From an uncultured Bacteroidales bacterium (GTDB lineage: Bacteria; Bacteroidota; Bacteroidia; Bacteroidales; Paludibacteraceae), in assembly GCA_902780495.1 (NCBI GenBank), contig CACZFM010000001.1:1-64000 (forward strand): 64,000 nucleotides of DNA. Direction: 5' to 3'. The translations under genes and the position numbers were made by a program. Shown here piece after piece: positions 7,156-41,729 of the stretch. Each line of letters starts with the position of its first letter. Position 1 is the first letter of the stretch. The notes beneath the pieces are model-generated. The model was given only the letters and a program-made list of their open reading frames with translations, had not been told where the DNA came from and searched no databases.

Positions 7156-8307
7156 ATGCTCAATCAGCGTAACTCAATATGGTCAGGAATAGATTGGATA
7201 ACCGTCGGAATGTTCCTTGCACTATGTATCATAGGCTGGGTGAATATTTACGCGGCAGGCTATTCGTTTGAGCATGAGAGTTCCATTGTCTCTTGGTCCA
7301 ATCGCGCAGGAAAACAGTTCGTGTGGATTATCACCGCTTTGTTAATGGGATTGATTATCATATTGATAGACGAACATACCTATCAGATTCTGGGCTATTG
7401 GTTTTATGGAATAATGATTCTTATTCTATTAGCTACGCCTGTTCTGGCACATGATATCAAGGGTTCCCTTTCGTGGATTTCTTTGGGACCCGTATCTATC
7501 CAACCGGCAGAGTTTGCCAAGTGCTTTACGGCAATAGCAGTTGCCAAATATATGGGGCGCTATGGCTATGAGGTGAAGGGATGGAAAGATTTGGTGGTTC
7601 CTTTCCTGTTGATAGGTGTGCCGATGTTTATTATTATGGTTTTGCAAGATGAGACAGGGTCGGCGTTGGTGTTTGGAGCATTTCTTTTTGTTTTCTATCG
7701 TCAGGGCATGACCGGCAAGTTCTTGCTTTTCGGAGCCATAGCTGTTTTAGTGGGAGTATTGGTGCTGAAACTGCAAATCATTCCGGACAACTGGATAGAT
7801 ATGGTGCTGCAACCTCACCAGCGCAGCCGTATCGAAGTGCTGTTAGGTATAAAAGATGACCCGCGTGGAGCAGGCTATAATGTGGCGCAATCGCTCATCG
7901 CCATCGGGTCGGGACGCTTTTTCGGGAAAGGTTTCCTGCAGGGAACACAAACGAAACTGAATTTTGTGCCGGAGCAAGATACAGACTTCATTTTCTGTAC
8001 GATAGGTGAAGAATGGGGATTCTTCGGTTCTGCTTTTGTGGTGCTGTTGTATATGGCTTTTATTCTGCGGCTTATCACACTTGCAGAAAGGCAACGGGAC
8101 ATGTTCTCGCAAGTCTATGCGTATGCCGTTGCCTGTATATTTTTGGTGCATCTCACCATCAATGTAGGTATGGTTCTGGGCATTATGCCCGTCATCGGAA
8201 TACCGTTACCGTTCTTCAGTTACGGTGGTTCGTCCTTATGGGGATTTACGTTGCTGCTGTTTATTCTGATAAGGTTGGACGCGTCCCGTATCAACAAAAT
8301 GCTTTAA
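7156..8307 (+). CDS. rodA: SEDS peptidoglycan glycosyltransferase RodA
   Basis: RodA polymerises lipid II into glycan strands alongside PBP2. The 383-residue product has about ten membrane helices. It also has SEDS signatures: 'EQDTDFIFCTIGEEWGF' in the large periplasmic loop and a 'PFFSYGGSS' motif near the C-terminus. It is the final gene of the operon and converges with kdsD. Only 17 bases separate the two stops, and no clear terminator is visible there. Confidence 0.96.
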   Translation: MLNQRNSIWSGIDWITVGMFLALCIIGWVNIYAAGYSFEHESSIVSWSNRAGKQFVWIITALLMGLIIILIDEHTYQILGYWFYGIMILILLATPVLAHDIKGSLSWISLGPVSIQPAEFAKCFTAIAVAKYMGRYGYEVKGWKDLVVPFLLIGVPMFIIMVLQDETGSALVFGAFLFVFYRQGMTGKFLLFGAIAVLVGVLVLKLQIIPDNWIDMVLQPHQRSRIEVLLGIKDDPRGAGYNVAQSLIAIGSGRFFGKGFLQGTQTKLNFVPEQDTDFIFCTIGEEWGFFGSAFVVLLYMAFILRLITLAERQRDMFSQVYAYAVACIFLVHLTINVGMVLGIMPVIGIPLPFFSYGGSSLWGFTLLLFILIRLDASRINKML

Positions 8308-32002: not shown

Positions 32003-32692
32003 TTAACGTTTATATGATTGCATATATGTGATTACGGACGAAAATCCTTTTTGTTCGTACATTTCTTTCATTTTTCGAAATCCATCGCCATAAACGATGT
32101 CTGTATCTCGGTTTAATAATTCAATCTGTCCCATTGCAGTAGGCGTATGGATAGATAGCATAACGAGATATGATCCTAAATTGCAAAAACCTTCGCATAT
32201 TGCGTCAGGAGGATATATTTGATGTTCATATTGCCAAATATGTAACATCTCATGCGATAGAACCATGGCTAATACAGCTCGTGATAAGTAGCGTCGTACA
32301 ACAATATGGTATCCGTCTGTATCAGGAGGTAATTCCACAAAACCTCTCGCCTGAGCCGAATGCAGATTCGCCATTTGTGCAGCAGTCACTCCTTTTAACA
32401 TAATATGCGATTTAATGTCTAAACCTTGCTGCTTATAGAACGTACGAATATACGAAACCGTTTTCTCTGCACCGGCTTTGTCCGGTACGTTCTTCACGCA
32501 AGTTTCACACAGCCATTCGCCAGGAACCATTTCCTTGGCTTTTGATCCATAATAACGTCCGCAACTGGAACAGAAGCAAGCATTATGTTTTTTACATGCA
32601 AGATTTCCGCTCCAGTCTTGGTACGCTTCGCCAAGTATGATCTTACCACAGATACGGCACGAATGTCCTAACAATAATGAGCGAATGTTCAT
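32003..32692 (-). CDS. DA1-like LIM/zinc-finger metallopeptidase
   Basis: This 229-residue protein has an N-terminal LIM-like double zinc finger: C12-x2-C15, C33-x2-H36, C41-x2-C44 and C62-x2-C65. The C-terminal peptidase resembles plant DA1: the zinc motif H147-E-M-L-H151, then a downstream Glu in 'ICEGFCNLGSYLVM' as third ligand. Plant DA1 is a ubiquitin-activated peptidase; bacterial homologues are of unknown target. The TGATG overlap with the PP2C gene and the two-base gap to the LRR gene place it inside the signalling cassette. I infer that it cleaves a partner protein or a modified peptide of the same cassette. Confidence 0.82.
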   Translation of the reverse strand: MNIRSLLLGHSCRICGKIILGEAYQDWSGNLACKKHNACFCSSCGRYYGSKAKEMVPGEWLCETCVKNVPDKAGAEKTVSYIRTFYKQQGLDIKSHIMLKGVTAAQMANLHSAQARGFVELPPDTDGYHIVVRRYLSRAVLAMVLSHEMLHIWQYEHQIYPPDAICEGFCNLGSYLVMLSIHTPTAMGQIELLNRDTDIVYGDGFRKMKEMYEQKGFSSVITYMQSYKR

Positions 32693-33954
32693 CAGCTATC
32701 CGTCTCTACTTTCTCTCCTACGATATTTTGGAGTGACTTTAGTGTTTTTTCGTAATCTGCTTTGACACGTTGATACTCACGCTCTATAGCCGGTTTTCGC
32801 GATTCGAGATCTTTTGCCTCCTTGGTCGCCTTCTCTATTCTTCGATTAATGTCAGTCAATTTTTGTTCCCATTCATCCATTGACGATTTAAGAGATTCCA
32901 AGTCTTTCGACAGAGCCTCTTTTAAACGACATTCTACCGCATTTGACATAGCATCCAGCAGACTCTCATCATAGACAAATGCTACAGACATATCATCCTT
33001 GCTACGCATAGCACTGAGTATAGGAAGATTCTCTTGAATCTCCTTAATAACCGATTCTAAGCCCTCTTGCTTTATACGACGAATGATATTACCATAGAAA
33101 TTATATAATTTGTCGCCATCGCCAAGCGAGTCGTCAAGTCCATCCGATCCTAAAAATATTGCAGATGGGAATTGTCCATCCCCTTCTGCGCAATATCGGA
33201 ATTCCTCTACAGGTTCCGAATCACATAAAGATGTTGTTTTGTTGAGGAAACAACGTTCGTCCCATGGAATAGGCTGCGAGAACTGCATATCCTTATCCAT
33301 CATAACGCACTTGCCATCTCCCAAATGGAAGGCGAACCAATAATCAGGCGTCTGTGCGTACGTCATCAGCGTACATCCGTATGCTTTGACTATCCGTTCT
33401 GAGTCTTGCAAGATTTGCAAATGTTCCGGCTTAATATTCTCGGTTTCCCACTGTGTGACAGGACGCTTCGCATCTTCTAAGATAGCATTTCTCCATTGGA
33501 TATAAATTTTTGCGAACAATCGACGCATACTGATATCCAAGTTGTCTTGCTCTGCTATCGTATCTAATATACCCACTTGCGTAAATGGCATATTTGCAAA
33601 GAGGTTCTTACCGTCTTCACGTATCAACTCGAGCACATTCGTGACTGTGATATCCGCCGCTTCTTTTGCTCCTACTGCGCTACGGAAATAAGTATCCCCG
33701 CCATGACCATCACACACAACGGCAATATAGATACCTTTTTCTTTATCAACATACGTGCGTGAATAATCTTGGCATTCCTTGTTGGTCGCTTTATGACTGT
33801 CCCCTTGACAGGAATAATTGTAACATTCAGTAGTCGGCAAAATCTGAGACTTGGAAGATGGTTCTATCAGCGGCAAAACTTGAGGTTCGGCAGATGGTTC
33901 TATCTGCCGTTCCTCATTTTTTTTGCTTCCGAAAAGAGATTTGAAGAAACTCAT
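32692..33954 (-). CDS. PP2C-family Ser/Thr phosphatase (TerY-P triad)
   Basis: This 420-residue protein has a PP2C fold with metal-binding residues in 'VVCDGHGG' (D82), 'FLGSDGLDDS' and 'SKDDMSVAF'. The N-terminal 40 residues hold a short duplicated segment of the form EPS-x2-(P/S)-Q-(V/I)-L-P. The C-terminal 90 residues form a coiled coil ('KLTDINRRIEKATKEAKDLE'). In the TerY-P triad this enzyme opposes the kinase. It lies eight bases after the vWA gene and overlaps the DA1-like gene by one base. Confidence 0.9.
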   Translation of the reverse strand: MSFFKSLFGSKKNEERQIEPSAEPQVLPLIEPSSKSQILPTTECYNYSCQGDSHKATNKECQDYSRTYVDKEKGIYIAVVCDGHGGDTYFRSAVGAKEAADITVTNVLELIREDGKNLFANMPFTQVGILDTIAEQDNLDISMRRLFAKIYIQWRNAILEDAKRPVTQWETENIKPEHLQILQDSERIVKAYGCTLMTYAQTPDYWFAFHLGDGKCVMMDKDMQFSQPIPWDERCFLNKTTSLCDSEPVEEFRYCAEGDGQFPSAIFLGSDGLDDSLGDGDKLYNFYGNIIRRIKQEGLESVIKEIQENLPILSAMRSKDDMSVAFVYDESLLDAMSNAVECRLKEALSKDLESLKSSMDEWEQKLTDINRRIEKATKEAKDLESRKPAIEREYQRVKADYEKTLKSLQNIVGEKVETDS

Positions 33955-33961
33955 AATTCGA

Positions 33962-34717
33962 TTACCAATTATCGTCCATCGTCACGTTTGCAGCTTCTTG
34001 ACCAATCTGCACATTTGACTCGCCTTGTAACTGTTGTGCGATAGCTTGTCCTACTTCCTCTTGTTTTGTTTCGGGAGCATCTGCGCCTGCAGATGAGCTA
34101 GAACTCTTTGAGCCCACCTGTGAAGACGTAACAACGACGCATTTGATTACTTTCTTCAGCGACTCAACATCGTGCACTTGAATAACCATCTCAATGTTAC
34201 CGGTAAACTTCGCGAGCACTTCCAAATCTGCGTCATCGCCGATAGCAATGGCTATCTTGATAGCAGCTTTATACCAGTTATTCTGCTTTAACTGAGAGAG
34301 TCCACGTTCAAAATCATCTGTGGGACCGCCATCAGACAAGAGAATAAGTACGGGAGCAAATGAGCCACTACCGCTCTTCATAAAACCATGCGATTGTGAT
34401 AACTTGCTTGCCAATTCAGAGCAAGCTGCTCCTAAATCAGTGCCTCCGTTTGCTGTTTGGTCAGTCCATTCAAAATCAGCTGCAATCTTTGGTTCGGGAG
34501 TTACCCAATCACATCCATTGGAGAATGTTAATGCTGCCACTTTAATTTCAGCATCTGCATTCGAATCATTGATGTCATTTACAATAGGCAGAACGTTACG
34601 AATAGCATCGTTTACTGCTCCAATTTTACTTCCTCTCATACTACCGGAAACATCGGCAAGTAAGAATAAGGTCATCGTGCGACGCGGCACGGCTTGAACA
34701 TCATCTAATAAACCCAT
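33962..34717 (-). CDS. TerY-like von Willebrand factor A protein (TerY-P triad)
   Basis: This 251-residue protein starts after a short basic lead with a MIDAS metal site D22-x-S24-x-S26 in 'LLADVSGSM'. A later Thr ('NGGTDLGAAC') and Asp ('LLSDGGPTDDF') complete the site. No signal peptide is present, so it is cytoplasmic, as in TerY. The C-terminal 45 residues are low-complexity, with Ser and Gln. In the triad the vWA protein is thought to be a phosphorylated adaptor. It lies between kinase and phosphatase, 19 and 7 bases away. Confidence 0.9.
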   Translation of the reverse strand: MGLLDDVQAVPRRTMTLFLLADVSGSMRGSKIGAVNDAIRNVLPIVNDINDSNADAEIKVAALTFSNGCDWVTPEPKIAADFEWTDQTANGGTDLGAACSELASKLSQSHGFMKSGSGSFAPVLILLSDGGPTDDFERGLSQLKQNNWYKAAIKIAIAIGDDADLEVLAKFTGNIEMVIQVHDVESLKKVIKCVVVTSSQVGSKSSSSSAGADAPETKQEEVGQAIAQQLQGESNVQIGQEAANVTMDDNW

Positions 34718-34736
34718 AATGATAAAGTTTTTAAAG

Positions 34737-36011
34737 TTATTGTATTTTTGCTATATATTGATATCCTCTTATTTTCAGTTTAAGCTGCAATCCAACTTTT
34801 ACCGGAAGGTACTCGTTTGGTTTCACAATACGTACTTGACCGGTAGTAGTTTGAACCTCAATGTCGTTTTGCATTAAGTTTTGAATTACCAGTTTGGATG
34901 GGTCTTGTGCGGTATGAACAATTCGCATATCCGGTGTATCATCCCGATCAATAAAAAGCGTATTACCATCCGTTAAGGGTAATCTGCGCTTTTCTATTTC
35001 GAGTACATTCGAAACGACAATCGATTTTCCACAATCAAGACATTTCTGTAAACTTGCAAATGTTTCTTCCCCACAGAACGGGCAACGGATTAATTCATCG
35101 CGTACAGAGGTTAGAATATCCAACCATTGCATTTCTGTTAGACGCTTATTGGGGCTATTGAGAATTGGCGCTGTAAACTCCCGAGTAAAGGAGTCACGAA
35201 GCAACTTCGGGAATAGTGGCCAACGTTTGATCACATTGTTATGTAATCCCTTTATCGGCGCATTGGATTTATCTGTCGGGTGCGCGATAAAGAGTATCTC
35301 ACTTCCATAACATTTTCGATCTAGTTCTTCGGTCATGCAAGGATGTGCCAATACCTTCATTCCCTCAAACGGGTGATTCATGTAAATGATGTAGAATAAA
35401 ATCACTGCCAAAGAGAATTTATCGGTATAAGCATCCGGCATACGTTGCCCAGTAACTACTTCCGGAGCCATATATCGTGCTTTACCTAAAATGCCGGATT
35501 TCTCTCCATTCGGGAAAGCATTGTCATTATCGCAGATCATTACATGACCTGTCTTTGGATCAATAAAGAAGTTGCCATCATTCAAATCTTGGTAACTTAA
35601 TCCCTTTGCGTGCAATGCTTTAAATGCTTCGCATATTTCTATCGCAGAAGTAAAGATGGCATGCAGACTTGCAAAGCGCTGCTTGTTAATAAGGAATTGA
35701 CCAAACTCATAGTAGCCTTCCGGGCGGAGTTTCATTACATAGCCGAAGCTGCCCTGCTCATGTTGGGTCACGTACTCCGGCCATATAAACATCGGAGCAG
35801 GAGCACCTGATTCTGCATTCTGCCGCAAGTTTTTGTAGAACTTCTCTGGAGAAGATGATGGCGGGTTTTTATACCATTTTAATGCCATGTCTTTTCCGTT
35901 AACCGAGGCAAGGTACACATAGCCTTGTCCTCCTTCGCCAAGTAATTTCTTTACTGTGGCTGTCGCTCCGTTCGTCAAATGGACGGTAGCACCGATTTGT
36001 AATTCTGACAT
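34737..36011 (-). CDS. Ser/Thr protein kinase with zinc ribbon (TerY-P triad)
   Basis: This 424-residue kinase has a Gly-rich loop 'LGEGGQGYVY' (G25-G30), the catalytic Lys K45 in 'MALKWY', the catalytic loop 'YQDLNDGNFF' with Asp and Asn kept, and the metal Asp in 'CDNDNA' in place of DFG. 'ARYMAPEV' is the activation segment end. After the kinase fold come a zinc ribbon (C-x2-C ... C-x2-C, 'CPFCGEE' and 'CLDCG') and a beta-rich C-terminal domain. This layout is that of the TerY-P triad kinase. The degenerate DFG is usual in that group. It is four bases from the 64-residue gene upstream. Confidence 0.9.
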   Translation of the reverse strand: MSELQIGATVHLTNGATATVKKLLGEGGQGYVYLASVNGKDMALKWYKNPPSSSPEKFYKNLRQNAESGAPAPMFIWPEYVTQHEQGSFGYVMKLRPEGYYEFGQFLINKQRFASLHAIFTSAIEICEAFKALHAKGLSYQDLNDGNFFIDPKTGHVMICDNDNAFPNGEKSGILGKARYMAPEVVTGQRMPDAYTDKFSLAVILFYIIYMNHPFEGMKVLAHPCMTEELDRKCYGSEILFIAHPTDKSNAPIKGLHNNVIKRWPLFPKLLRDSFTREFTAPILNSPNKRLTEMQWLDILTSVRDELIRCPFCGEETFASLQKCLDCGKSIVVSNVLEIEKRRLPLTDGNTLFIDRDDTPDMRIVHTAQDPSKLVIQNLMQNDIEVQTTTGQVRIVKPNEYLPVKVGLQLKLKIRGYQYIAKIQ

Positions 36012-36962: not shown

Positions 36963-37709
36963 TCAATCAAAAAGGTTATACAATTTCTCAAAATTTGTAT
37001 GAGACACTTTCTCCCATTGCTCACAAGACATTACGTCTCTCACATGGAAGATAGTTTCTCTATAATCTGTCAACAAATCTTTCTCCGGCGCATGGATTTT
37101 CTGCAAAGGATAATCTGTTCCGAATAATATTCGGTCTTCTAATCCAGTTTCGATAAGTTTCGCAACTTCAGGAAATGGCGTATAAGCGGTATCTCCCCAG
37201 CAATTCGGGCATTCTTTTATTACTTCAATCGCTTGATCCACAGGCCTACAATGAGCCAAGACGAATGACACATTAGGATGAGATTTTACGATTTCCTTAT
37301 ACACGCCCGCCTCGCAATGCGGGAAATCGCCGGTATGAATTATCAGCGGCAAAGATAGCTCTTCAGCAATAGTTGCACACTCATTTACTCCGTTAAGCGA
37401 CCACGGATGATTTCCGTGTACTTTGAGTGCATACCATTTGATACCGCTCTCAAGCATCATATCTAGTTTGCCCTTTAACAGCATTTGGGGTGTAAGCCAA
37501 AGAATGGGCAAAACGCTTTGTGGAACAAGTGTAACCAGTTCGCGCATTTCATTCAGGACTTTTTTGTAATCCTCCTCCCAAATAGTGGTGGACATGACAG
37601 CATACTTCTCCACTCCGGCTTGCTGCATAAAAGCAACTACTTCTTGCGGAGAAGTATAAATGTCGTTGAATTGTCCTACATGGATATGCGCGTCACTTAG
37701 TTTCGCCAT
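36963..37709 (-). CDS. Amidohydrolase (amidohydrolase-2/TIM-barrel metal hydrolase)
   Basis: This 248-residue TIM-barrel protein has the metal ligands in 'DAHIHVGQ' (HxH, residues 8 and 10), a His in 'PLIIHTGDFPH', one in 'FVLAHCRP', and the Asp in 'ILFGTDYPL'. The full set suggests an active hydrolase, in the amidohydrolase-2 or TatD-like group. The 5' end overlaps the radical SAM maturase by 17 bases, so the two are tightly linked. It could act on the modified peptide or on a small-molecule substrate. Confidence 0.82.
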   Translation of the reverse strand: MAKLSDAHIHVGQFNDIYTSPQEVVAFMQQAGVEKYAVMSTTIWEEDYKKVLNEMRELVTLVPQSVLPILWLTPQMLLKGKLDMMLESGIKWYALKVHGNHPWSLNGVNECATIAEELSLPLIIHTGDFPHCEAGVYKEIVKSHPNVSFVLAHCRPVDQAIEVIKECPNCWGDTAYTPFPEVAKLIETGLEDRILFGTDYPLQKIHAPEKDLLTDYRETIFHVRDVMSCEQWEKVSHTNFEKLYNLFD

Positions 37710-39177
37710 AGTTCTTTTTCAGTTGCTCAGCAAAATATTCCTCTGCAAGTCGCTTGGTTAAGAATGCCACATCGCAGAAATGGCGATTGATCTTGAGCAT
37801 ATCGCCGTTGCTCTCATTATAGTTGCGTACCAAACAACGAGCGCAGAAATCGCGAGCCTCACAGGTCAAACATTCAGGAAAACTCTCTTGCGTGATACGC
37901 CGTAACTCGCGCAGTTTCGGGCTATCTTCCCAGATTTCAGCCAAAGATTGTTTATATACATTGCCTAAAACCATGGATTGCCATCCGGCGCATGGATACA
38001 CATCGCCATTAGCCGTTATACAACAGTTGTCATAGCCTACACCGCAAACACGCTGTTTTTTATAGCGCTCTAAATCGAACTTTATTTCTTCGCTCACAGG
38101 GCGCTTTGTGATAACATCTTGCTTATATACCGGATCATACTGCATGATATCGCGAAGCAACTCTTCGGTTTCCTCTATCGAAATACGATTAGCAAGATTA
38201 GAGGTATCAAAGTTCGCCTCAGCCATCATAATAAAGTCCGTTTGTGCTTTTATCTTCAGCGAATTAGCATACTCCAATACCGCTCGATAGCCTTTACGGT
38301 TGGCTTTCATAATCGGGCATGAGATTTGTACCGGTACATCTGCTGCAACGAGTTTCTCTATTGCCGCTTTGGTCTTTGCAAACGAACCTTTGACGGTGGT
38401 AATGAAATCGTGAATTTCCGGGTCCATGCTATAGAGCGACACTTGGATAAGCGAGATATTCAGGTCTTTGAGTTGCTGCACTTGCTCGTCTTTCAACGCG
38501 ATTAGATTACTAAGGATAGTAACCATCATATCTTTTTCGCGCGCATAACGCGTGAGTTCAATTAGGTCTTTGTGCATGAATGCCTCTCCACCTGAGAACG
38601 TGACATGAATACCACCCATTGCAGCCAATTGGTCAATAAGATCCTTTACTTTAGCAGTCGGCATATCAAAACCTGCATTCTTCTTCTCGTTAGGGATATA
38701 GCAGTGAATACACCGCTCGTTACAACGGGATGATAGCTCAAACTGGATATTGGAGATTAGCGGTTTGCCTTGTACTTCCTCCAAGAAGAAATCCTGTGTG
38801 TTCTCGCTAATCGGTTTTTCTGTAGCTTGATAGAAATCTGTTGCAAGCGTCTTAGGATTGCCCATTGAATATGAGAATGTCAAATCCTTGGCATCCAATT
38901 CTTCTGGCGTCTCGCCAAGCATGATAAAATGGTCTTTTGCCAAACTCTCTGCGAACTCCATAAAATCGGCTTCGAGTGTAGCGAAGTCCACGCCACTATA
39001 TACTTCGAGCAGACGATTGATAATATCATCTACTTCCTGCGGCTCACGATTAATCTCACGCAATAAATCTGCGCCAAACGAATCATAACTACGATCATGT
39101 CGAGTTAATTGATTCGTAATATATCCGTAACGTTCAGTCGTTCGGATAAAAGAGTTCTTAGATTGTTTTATTAGCAT
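37693..39177 (-). CDS. Radical SAM/SPASM peptide maturase with PqqD/RRE-like N-terminus
   Basis: This 494-residue protein has three zones. Residues 1-95 resemble PqqD/RRE precursor-binding domains ('IRTTERYGYITNQLTRHDRS', then helices). The radical SAM core has C152-x3-C156-x2-C159 in 'CNERCIHCY', with 'VTFSGGEAF' following. The SPASM C-terminus has 'CCITANGDVYPCAGW' and clustered Cys in 'CLTCEARDFCARC'. This is the layout of enzymes that install thioether or C-C links in ribosomal peptides. It overlaps the 71-residue gene by seven bases; the 55-residue peptide gene lies 278 bases upstream. Confidence 0.9.
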   Translation of the reverse strand: MLIKQSKNSFIRTTERYGYITNQLTRHDRSYDSFGADLLREINREPQEVDDIINRLLEVYSGVDFATLEADFMEFAESLAKDHFIMLGETPEELDAKDLTFSYSMGNPKTLATDFYQATEKPISENTQDFFLEEVQGKPLISNIQFELSSRCNERCIHCYIPNEKKNAGFDMPTAKVKDLIDQLAAMGGIHVTFSGGEAFMHKDLIELTRYAREKDMMVTILSNLIALKDEQVQQLKDLNISLIQVSLYSMDPEIHDFITTVKGSFAKTKAAIEKLVAADVPVQISCPIMKANRKGYRAVLEYANSLKIKAQTDFIMMAEANFDTSNLANRISIEETEELLRDIMQYDPVYKQDVITKRPVSEEIKFDLERYKKQRVCGVGYDNCCITANGDVYPCAGWQSMVLGNVYKQSLAEIWEDSPKLRELRRITQESFPECLTCEARDFCARCLVRNYNESNGDMLKINRHFCDVAFLTKRLAEEYFAEQLKKNYGETK

Positions 39178-39386
39178 GGATTACCATTGTTTTGTTGAGA
39201 AAAGAGAGTCAAGAGATCAAATATATCACTTGCTAATCGTTGTGTACACTCATCAATTCGCTGCTGAATAGTTTTATCTGGTTTTTCAAAATTCTCTACC
39301 CTATTTTGTTCTTTAATACCATTTTGTAATTTTTCGAAATACTTGACGCTATTGCACAAGTAATTTAATATCTCATTTTGATTCAT
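39171..39386 (-). CDS. 71-residue helical protein between precursor and maturase
   Basis: The ATG at 39386 gives 71 residues: Asn/Gln-rich helices with two Cys residues in the first half and 'NGNPC' as the end. It overlaps the maturase start by seven bases. A leader-binding, chaperone or second substrate role is possible. I do not recognise the family. Confidence 0.6.
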   Translation of the reverse strand: MNQNEILNYLCNSVKYFEKLQNGIKEQNRVENFEKPDKTIQQRIDECTQRLASDIFDLLTLFSQQNNGNPC

Positions 39387-39413
39387 TTCGTTAATTGTTT
39401 TAAGGTAAATTTA

Positions 39414-39437
39414 GGAGCGGGCAGAATTTCCCGCTCC
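39414..39437 (-). terminator. Hairpin between peptide gene and maturase genes
   Basis: A perfect 8-bp stem (GGAGCGGG 39414-39421 with CCCGCTCC 39430-39437, 8-nt loop) lies 17 bases after the stop of the 55-residue peptide gene. On the minus strand it is followed by TAAATTTA rather than a strong T run. It may be a leaky terminator or a processing barrier that sets peptide over enzyme dosage. Confidence 0.65.
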
Positions 39438-39454
39438 ATTTAAAAAACAAACGA

Positions 39455-39622
39455 TTAGCCTGCTAATTCACATACGGAACAACCTGAAGGCCTACTCCAG
39501 CAGTGTCCCTCAGCATCAACTGTCGTTGTGTTGTTTCCTTGATGATGTGTAGGACAACCAGCTGCATACGAACCTGTCGGAAGGTTCTTTGCAATCAATT
39601 CAGCTTTTTGATAATTTTTCAT
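39455..39622 (-). CDS. Putative RiPP precursor peptide, four Cys
   Basis: The ATG at 39622 opens 55 codons ending with TAA at 39455. The N-terminal part 'MKNYQKAELIAKNLPTGSYA' is helical and charged, like a leader. The C-terminal part after 'AGCP' is rich in Gly, Ser, Thr and His with Cys at 23, 41, 48 and 51, ending 'CSVCELAG'. The 55-residue size, leader/core split and position two genes upstream of an RRE-containing radical SAM/SPASM enzyme make it the likely substrate. The true cross-links are unknown. Confidence 0.72.
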   Translation of the reverse strand: MKNYQKAELIAKNLPTGSYAAGCPTHHQGNNTTTVDAEGHCWSRPSGCSVCELAG

Positions 39623-39707: not shown

Positions 39708-39833
39708 TTAATCTTTTTTCTCTTGAGAAGCCAACATACATCCAGTAATATTATCCGGACATTCGGCTGTATTCCGATAAGCACAACTTGCACGCATCGG
39801 GCATTTTTGTGTATGTAGAAAATGAGCCTCCAT
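39708..39833 (-). CDS. 41-residue four-Cys protein
   Basis: The ATG at 39833 overlaps the stop of the 310-residue gene by one base (TAATG), which supports translation. The 41-residue product has Cys at 11, 17, 25 and 32, spaced C-x5-C-x7-C-x6-C, with a charged end 'SQEKKD'. It may be a small zinc- or cluster-binding protein or a second peptide substrate. The N-terminus of the 309-residue protein at 40800-41729 has a comparable Cys spacing, so the two may be related in function. Confidence 0.6.
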   Translation of the reverse strand: MEAHFLHTQKCPMRASCAYRNTAECPDNITGCMLASQEKKD

Positions 39834-40799: not shown

Positions 40800-41729
40800 T
40801 TATTTGATAGAATCTAACTCTTTTTTTTGTAAATAATAGCGAATAGCTACAGCAGCTATTAGGCCCAAAAAGCCCAATGCCATTATGGTAGGTAGTAATG
40901 ATCCAATGAGTAACACAAAAACCGCCACAACACCCCAAATTATCCAGAATTTCTTGTTTTTCTGCTTATGAATTTCGCGAAGTTCTTGACGTTTTTGTTC
41001 TTTTTGACGTTCTTGCTCTGCTTTGCGTGCTCTTTCTTCTGCTTTGCGTTTACGTTCCTCTTCTTCTTTTTCCCGTCTTTGCCGTTCTTCTTCCTCTTTT
41101 TTTGCTTTCTCTTCTGCAGCTTTTTTATCAATGAACTGTTTCCATTCTACTGCTTGCTTATGGATTTCTTCTCTTTGAGCACCGGGACCTGTTAACCCAT
41201 AATCGCGATATGCCTTGAGAATCTCGTCTATTTTTTTTATACAGAGATTATAGGGCTCGCGTGGATCTCTCTTTTTATAACCGTGGTCAAGATCTTCATT
41301 TCGCTCAATGAAATCATTATAATTAACGATTGCATCCGAATCAAATGGCTCTATTTGAGAACGTATTTGCTCCCACGTCATATATCCAACGCCATACATC
41401 ATAGGATGCATATTGTCTGTCGGGAATTTTGAAATTCCTTGTTGCACAGCAAGTTTGTCAAGATATTCGTCAATATAATCAATAGCTCTATTGACCTTAT
41501 CTAATTCCCTACCTATTCTTTCTTTGAATCTTTCTTGACGTCTTTGTTTCTCCTTCTCTGCTTGCTCCGCCCACATTTGATTCTGTTTTTCTTCAACATC
41601 ATCAAAAGCACTTAGCATACCATAATGCGGGCAGCCATCTTTGTCTGCAGAAGTCACATAACTGCGCATAAGATTATCCTCATCGCAGCGGTCATAAAAT
41701 TTGCACCGTTTACAAATACTGTTAGCCAT
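40800..41729 (-). CDS. Cys-cluster coiled-coil membrane protein, 309 residues
   Basis: The N-terminus has C-x2-C-x5-C and a later Cys-Pro-His ('SICKRCKFYDRC' and 'DGCPHYG'), a possible zinc or Fe-S site. A helical region and a long Lys/Glu/Arg coiled coil (about residues 195-255) follow, then two membrane helices near the C-terminus ('FWIIWGVVAVFVLLIGSLLP'). The design (cytoplasmic domain, coiled coil, C-terminal membrane hairpin) is shared with its two neighbours. The function is unknown. Confidence 0.7.
   Translation of the reverse strand: MANSICKRCKFYDRCDEDNLMRSYVTSADKDGCPHYGMLSAFDDVEEKQNQMWAEQAEKEKQRRQERFKERIGRELDKVNRAIDYIDEYLDKLAVQQGISKFPTDNMHPMMYGVGYMTWEQIRSQIEPFDSDAIVNYNDFIERNEDLDHGYKKRDPREPYNLCIKKIDEILKAYRDYGLTGPGAQREEIHKQAVEWKQFIDKKAAEEKAKKEEEERQRREKEEEERKRKAEERARKAEQERQKEQKRQELREIHKQKNKKFWIIWGVVAVFVLLIGSLLPTIMALGFLGLIAAVAIRYYLQKKELDSIK

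Follow-up and report, generated by a model that had tools for sequence, protein, structure and literature searches.

A putative RiPP precursor family with a variable core, encoded beside a radical SAM/SPASM maturase and an amidohydrolase in gut Bacteroidales

Introduction

A conserved leader and a variable core, genetically linked to an RRE-bearing maturase, form the classic signature of a RiPP precursor. The known maturases nearest to the enzyme described here, both by sequence and by fold, are SkfB (6efn), AlbA, StsB and SuiB (5v1t), all of which share with it the combination of RRE, radical SAM and SPASM parts and a small precursor gene nearby. In Bacteroidales, radical SAM RiPP clusters with PCAT exporters have been described (PMC10352776), which resemble our locus in their host order, their radical SAM/SPASM enzymes and their small precursors, but mostly use leaders with a GG motif and PCAT exporters; neither the AAGC motif nor an amidohydrolase occurs in that text. 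An amidohydrolase-family enzyme dedicated to RiPP processing is known from bottromycin biosynthesis (PurAH/BotAH; PMC10885120), where it takes off the follower peptide after macroamidine formation; this is a pathway of another kind, to which our locus is likened by enzyme family.

Here, we analysed a 64,000-nucleotide stretch of DNA from an uncultured Bacteroidales bacterium of the family Paludibacteraceae (GenBank assembly GCA_902780495.1, contig CACZFM010000001.1, positions 1 to 64,000), referred to as the window, in which an earlier note had seen a candidate RiPP with an RRE-bearing radical SAM/SPASM maturase. The cassette consists of precursor, maturase and amidohydrolase genes, all on the reverse strand. 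Unlike the SkfB, AlbA, StsB and SuiB systems, it has a dedicated amidohydrolase and a precursor that fits no model, its maturase scores far below the NCBIfam cut-offs, and no exporter appears among its frequent neighbour families. We conclude from sequence comparison that it represents a putative new RiPP precursor family and cassette of the known RRE/radical SAM/SPASM kind.

Results and discussion

The precursor gene and its conserved ends

The open reading frame at positions 39455-39622 translates to MKNYQKAELIAKNLPTGSYAAGCPTHHQGNNTTTVDAEGHCWSRPSGCSVCELAG, a peptide of 55 residues with Cys at positions 23, 41, 48 and 51, just as the earlier note had read it. That note had suggested looking for homologues of the peptide beside related radical SAM genes, and sequence and HMM searches indeed yielded 22 precursor genes, each adjoining a homologous maturase. 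They occupy 20 distinct loci: besides that of the window, 14 come from one-genome-per-species contigs and five from further genome searches. Within the block GSYAAGCP, pairwise comparison counted 964 synonymous against 63 non-synonymous codon differences, which marks the precursor as a translated and strongly constrained gene. Given this excess and the homologues next to a homologous enzyme at 20 loci, the frame is a real gene, well beyond chance.

Alignment of 21 precursors gave the consensus MKxYxKxxxxAKNxPxGSYAAGC, in which A11, N13, P15, G17, Y19, A21, G22 and C23 are invariant; GSYAAGC lies near residue 23 in every homologue (in one as the variant GAYSAGC) and is followed by Pro at residue 24, or by Lys at locus L013. 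Residues 1-24 of the window peptide (39551-39622) thus comprise leader and anchor, residues 25-47 a variable loop, and residues 48-55 a CX2C pair with four further residues. Across the family the loop spans 5-23 residues with no conserved position, whereas the C-terminal pair (CX2C, but CX3C in two peptides) stands exactly four residues from the C terminus in 22/22 precursors; the last conserved Cys often precedes Glu or Asp. The description as a four-Cys peptide therefore applies to the window peptide itself, while only three cysteines, C23 and the C-terminal CX2-3C, are kept in the family. Cys41 was rejected as a functional Cys, as it is found in the window peptide and absent from the homologues. 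Nor did the proposed division into a charged helical leader half and a core half hold, since the switch from conserved to variable sequence sits at Pro24 and not at the midpoint.

Distribution of the cassette

Among 358 Paludibacteraceae genomes, a close maturase (E < 1e-200) was present in eight, and the peptide adjoins it in 8/8; two further genomes of the same set carry a divergent maturase with another precursor. When 393 genomes of the order were sampled, a single one (G305), besides the window's own, contained a convincing precursor match. A match in G457 was taken as chance, as it has an in-frame stop and no trace of a precursor among its open reading frames. In the sample of phylum genomes, no precursor was detected beyond this order, and none of the window's family on the mobile elements searched, either in IMG/VR or on plasmids. 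The cassette is hence rare and patchy in its occurrence, and the named source records, which stem for the most part from the guts of ruminants, deer and horses, place it in gut Bacteroidales of grazing animals; metagenome assemblies are among the source genomes. In the tree, the maturases that neighbour the precursor form one monophyletic clade (20 tips, support 0.965), which together with the linkage in 8/8 genomes supports the original proposal of a RiPP with an RRE-bearing radical SAM/SPASM maturase. A peptide that is not conserved next to the maturase, which the earlier note had named as grounds for refutation, was thus not what we observed.

The maturase

The maturase (494 residues, 37693-39177) combines an N-terminal PqqD-like RRE (Pfam E-value 1.1e-6), a radical SAM barrel (2.9e-25) and a SPASM part (1.4e-13), as seen by Pfam, alignment and AlphaFold2. 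Its cluster motif CNERCIHC (residues 152-159, 38701-38724) is the same in 20/20 clade members, and alignment of these 20 proteins revealed eight invariant cysteines in the SPASM region (37774-38046), at residues 378, 386, 396, 436, 439, 445, 448 and 468, which by their number would suffice for two auxiliary clusters. The layout anticipated for the enzyme, a PqqD-like domain followed by CxxxCxxC and a Cys-rich SPASM part, is thus confirmed, as is the position of the peptide two genes upstream, with a 71-residue frame in between. The AlphaFold2 model has a mean pLDDT of 80, with values mostly of 82-96 in the RRE region. Its closest solved structures are SkfB and SuiB, the highest score belonging to SkfB, a sactisynthase; the epimerase EpeE is, like the C-C linker SuiB, also among the structural neighbours.

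Searches against NCBIfam reached no cut-off, the best model scoring 142.1 bits against a required 500. Among the maturases of peptides with a named product class, StsB ranked highest, far under its cut-off, and the sactisynthase models StsB (109.7 of 625 bits), AlbA (91.7 of 850) and SkfB (73.7 of 300) all remained below threshold. The best 25 of 85 matches, all below cut-off, include no PapB or SCIFF (ranthipeptide) model. Two loci have an additional radical SAM gene next to the main maturase (L013:6675-7988 and L016:5378-6487).

With RRE, CX3CX2C motif and SPASM cluster cysteines in the maturase, and with a linked small precursor of conserved leader and variable core, the locus shows the general features of RRE-dependent radical SAM/SPASM RiPP systems. 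The peptide itself matches no named class, and the earlier note had not recognised one either: against NCBIfam and Pfam, the precursor gave just a chance match (ApyD, E-value 0.23). In the open-access full-text literature, the precursor motifs were found in no paper, and a search for the pairing of radical SAM enzyme and amidohydrolase returned reviews and unrelated pathways only. Neither an exporter nor a C39 peptidase was among the 25 most frequent of the 68 families matched by 87 neighbouring genes; a secreted Bacteroidales RiPP lacking a dedicated exporter or C39 peptidase is unusual.

A conserved amidohydrolase

The third gene of the cassette, absent from the account in the earlier note, encodes an amidohydrolase of 248 residues (Amidohydro_2/TatD-like by Pfam and AlphaFold2; 36963-37709). 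It lies 3' of the maturase at 19/19 testable loci, the contig of the twentieth (L045) stopping short. Residues H8, H10, K96, H98, H125, H153 and D199 are invariant, the metal site is intact, and the closest folds to the AlphaFold2 model (pLDDT 95.7) are uncharacterised amidohydrolases, the 2-pyrone-4,6-dicarboxylate hydrolase LigI and TatD. Since the amidohydrolase PurAH trims bottromycin (PMC10885120), it is plausible by analogy that the cassette enzyme trims the precursor or the modified peptide.

Exchange of the precursor core

The maturases of the window and of a related locus, L009, are 97.8% identical. Their DNA aligns from upstream of the peptide, with identity unbroken up to the codons of Cys23 and Pro24, beyond which the two loci are unalignable until a hairpin; the frame 3' of this hairpin is again unrelated, and alignment returns at the start of the maturase. 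Similarity between the two loops (z = -1.8) falls under the shuffled expectation, whereas the loops of L019 and L020 are nearly the same (z = 12) although their maturases share only 74.7% identity. As loop similarity is lost at 97.8% but kept at 74.7% maturase identity, the difference between the window and L009 is better read as an exchange of the core than as drift. A frameshift was rejected as its cause, since the DNA itself cannot be aligned beyond Pro24.

The hairpin of the window, a stem-loop GGAGCGGG...CCCGCTCC at 39414-39437, lies just 3' of the peptide stop. A strong hairpin occupies this position at 13 of the 16 loci with the peptide ahead of the maturase, and in a dinucleotide-shuffle test 12 of 14 loci gave z-scores of -3.2 to -7.2 (-4.3 in the window), the other two being without signal. 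Because the stem sequences differ among loci, it is probably the structure itself that is kept, and the hairpin may possibly act as an attenuator or as a stabiliser or protection of the mRNA. The slot between hairpin and maturase holds, in the window, the 71-residue frame (39171-39386), which overlaps the maturase start, gave no confident Pfam match and is replaced by an unrelated frame in each gapped relative. All 8/8 loci with a gap of at least 266 bp have a frame of 54-219 residues in this slot, at most 16 bp from the maturase start or overlapping it in all but one case, and these eight are mutually dissimilar (no similarity below E 0.4). One may speculate that the slot encodes an immunity or partner protein.

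Proposed mechanism

What, then, would such a cassette make? We consider it probable, though by no means certain, that precursor, maturase and amidohydrolase make a RiPP, most likely by stapling with Cys-derived thioethers. The leader, MKxYxKxxxxAKNxPxG, is expected to be bound by the RRE of the maturase, whereupon the radical SAM/SPASM part would act on the fixed anchors, namely Cys23 in GSYAAGCP and the CX2-3C near the C terminus, so that the two ends would be stapled around the variable loop of 5-23 residues; the amidohydrolase would then most likely take off the leader or trim the modified peptide. This reading is favoured by the linkage of peptide and maturase, the single maturase clade, the RRE/radical SAM/SPASM layout, the structural likeness to SkfB and SuiB, the fixed spacings at both ends, the swapping of the loop while leader and enzymes are kept, and the constant presence of the amidohydrolase (19/19). 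From the swapping of loop and small neighbour gene while the enzymes stay, we infer that the maturase tolerates any loop and that the product is under diversifying selection, as might be expected of antagonism or strain-specific signalling.

Radical SAM/SPASM enzymes also epimerise residues and form C-C or ether links. A RiPP cassette with such other chemistry, in which C-C or C-O links at Tyr19 or Ser18, or epimerisation, would be installed and the cysteines would serve for disulfides or metal, is a tentative possibility: the 21 aligned peptides all have Tyr19, Ala21 and Gly22, EpeE and SuiB are among the structural neighbours, and the loop residues are unconserved, so that no constant acceptor for a thioether stands out. 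However, outside the leader the Cys pattern is the strictest feature, at a fixed distance from both ends, the top solved structure is SkfB, and StsB is the top maturase of a named class in NCBIfam, although far below cut-off. It appears quite improbable that the peptide is a small metal- or redox-binding product, such as a metallophore or cofactor precursor, instead of a diversified effector. Its three conserved cysteines, the last often before Glu or Asp, and its partnership with a metal hydrolase would suit this idea, as would the almost invariant core of a sister family, which is what one expects of a cofactor, but a cofactor would not tolerate a loop that is swapped between near-identical loci and varies fourfold in length. 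That the small frame encodes an unmodified regulatory or structural protein merely travelling with the maturase is highly improbable, since the frame is strictly linked, at 20 loci, to a single clade of RRE-bearing maturases and combines a conserved leader with a variable core.

The stapling reading may be extended to modular antagonism or recognition, with two invariant Cys anchors stapled, loop and cognate immunity or partner gene swapped as a unit, and a permissive maturase and amidohydrolase held fixed; we regard this extension as rather doubtful. If true, it would amount to a scaffold for cyclic peptides in which loops are swapped in nature, and a radical SAM RiPP would here be released by an amidohydrolase. 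A maturase that staples fixed anchors around any loop would offer a ready scaffold for cyclic peptides of arbitrary sequence, an amidohydrolase would be tied to radical SAM peptide maturation, and the swapped loops and partner frames yield testable predictions on competition among gut Bacteroidales.

A sister family on conjugative plasmids

A sister precursor of 38 residues (MxYxKPxxLAxxxxxMAxCxPNSKPSGRPCNPPxPxGR) is found with a maturase about 37% identical over its full length to that of the window, and its leader begins similarly. It differs in that its maturases form a separate clade (support 1.0), its core is nearly invariant across phyla and no amidohydrolase was present at the loci examined. 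The gene (loci L026, L027, L028 at about 7807-7925, L041:9783-9899, L042:9696-9812 and L049-L051) sits, unannotated, on E. coli, Salmonella and Photobacterium plasmids of the conjugative type, and also occurs in Bacteroidales genomes, with precursor matches in three more. The peptides of E. coli and Photobacterium are exactly the same, while their maturases are 77% identical. Through its presence on plasmids of E. coli and Salmonella, the sister family offers a tractable laboratory host. On the phage contig IMGVR_UViG_3300014208_000005 (L052:5001-5117), the sister precursor occurs as an orphan: no maturase was found within the 94-kb record, possibly a fragment. This is a hint that the substrate may travel on phages by itself.

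Neighbouring genes

At seven loci, a membrane Ser/Thr kinase is encoded no more than 8 kb from the cassette (L013, L014, L015, L018, L019, L020 and L044), mostly paired with a protein of 185-220 residues (F3) without a Pfam family. With only two to six kinases per genome (eight genomes counted), we estimate about 0.02 to be expected per locus, which makes the association unlikely by chance. As these genomes also contain the kinase and F3 pair at sites that lack the peptide, the pair was not adopted as part of the system and is left as an association. Just downstream of the cassette, the window contains a TerY-like group (32003-36011) composed of a kinase with a C-terminal zinc ribbon, a VWA protein, a PP2C phosphatase and a further protein that has a zinc ribbon and a metallopeptidase-like motif; the triad of kinase, VWA and PP2C was rejected as a system part, being unconserved and missing in L009 despite the 97.8% identical maturase. 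In one relative, a YcaO gene stands just upstream of the cassette (L022:4798-6825), where further modification of the peptide is possible. A 7-kb phage record (H37) gave a weak radical SAM match. Upstream of the peptide, a Cys-rich frame of 41 residues (39708-39833) overlaps the end of a coiled-coil gene, and the protein encoded at 40800-41729 starts with a similar Cys pattern.
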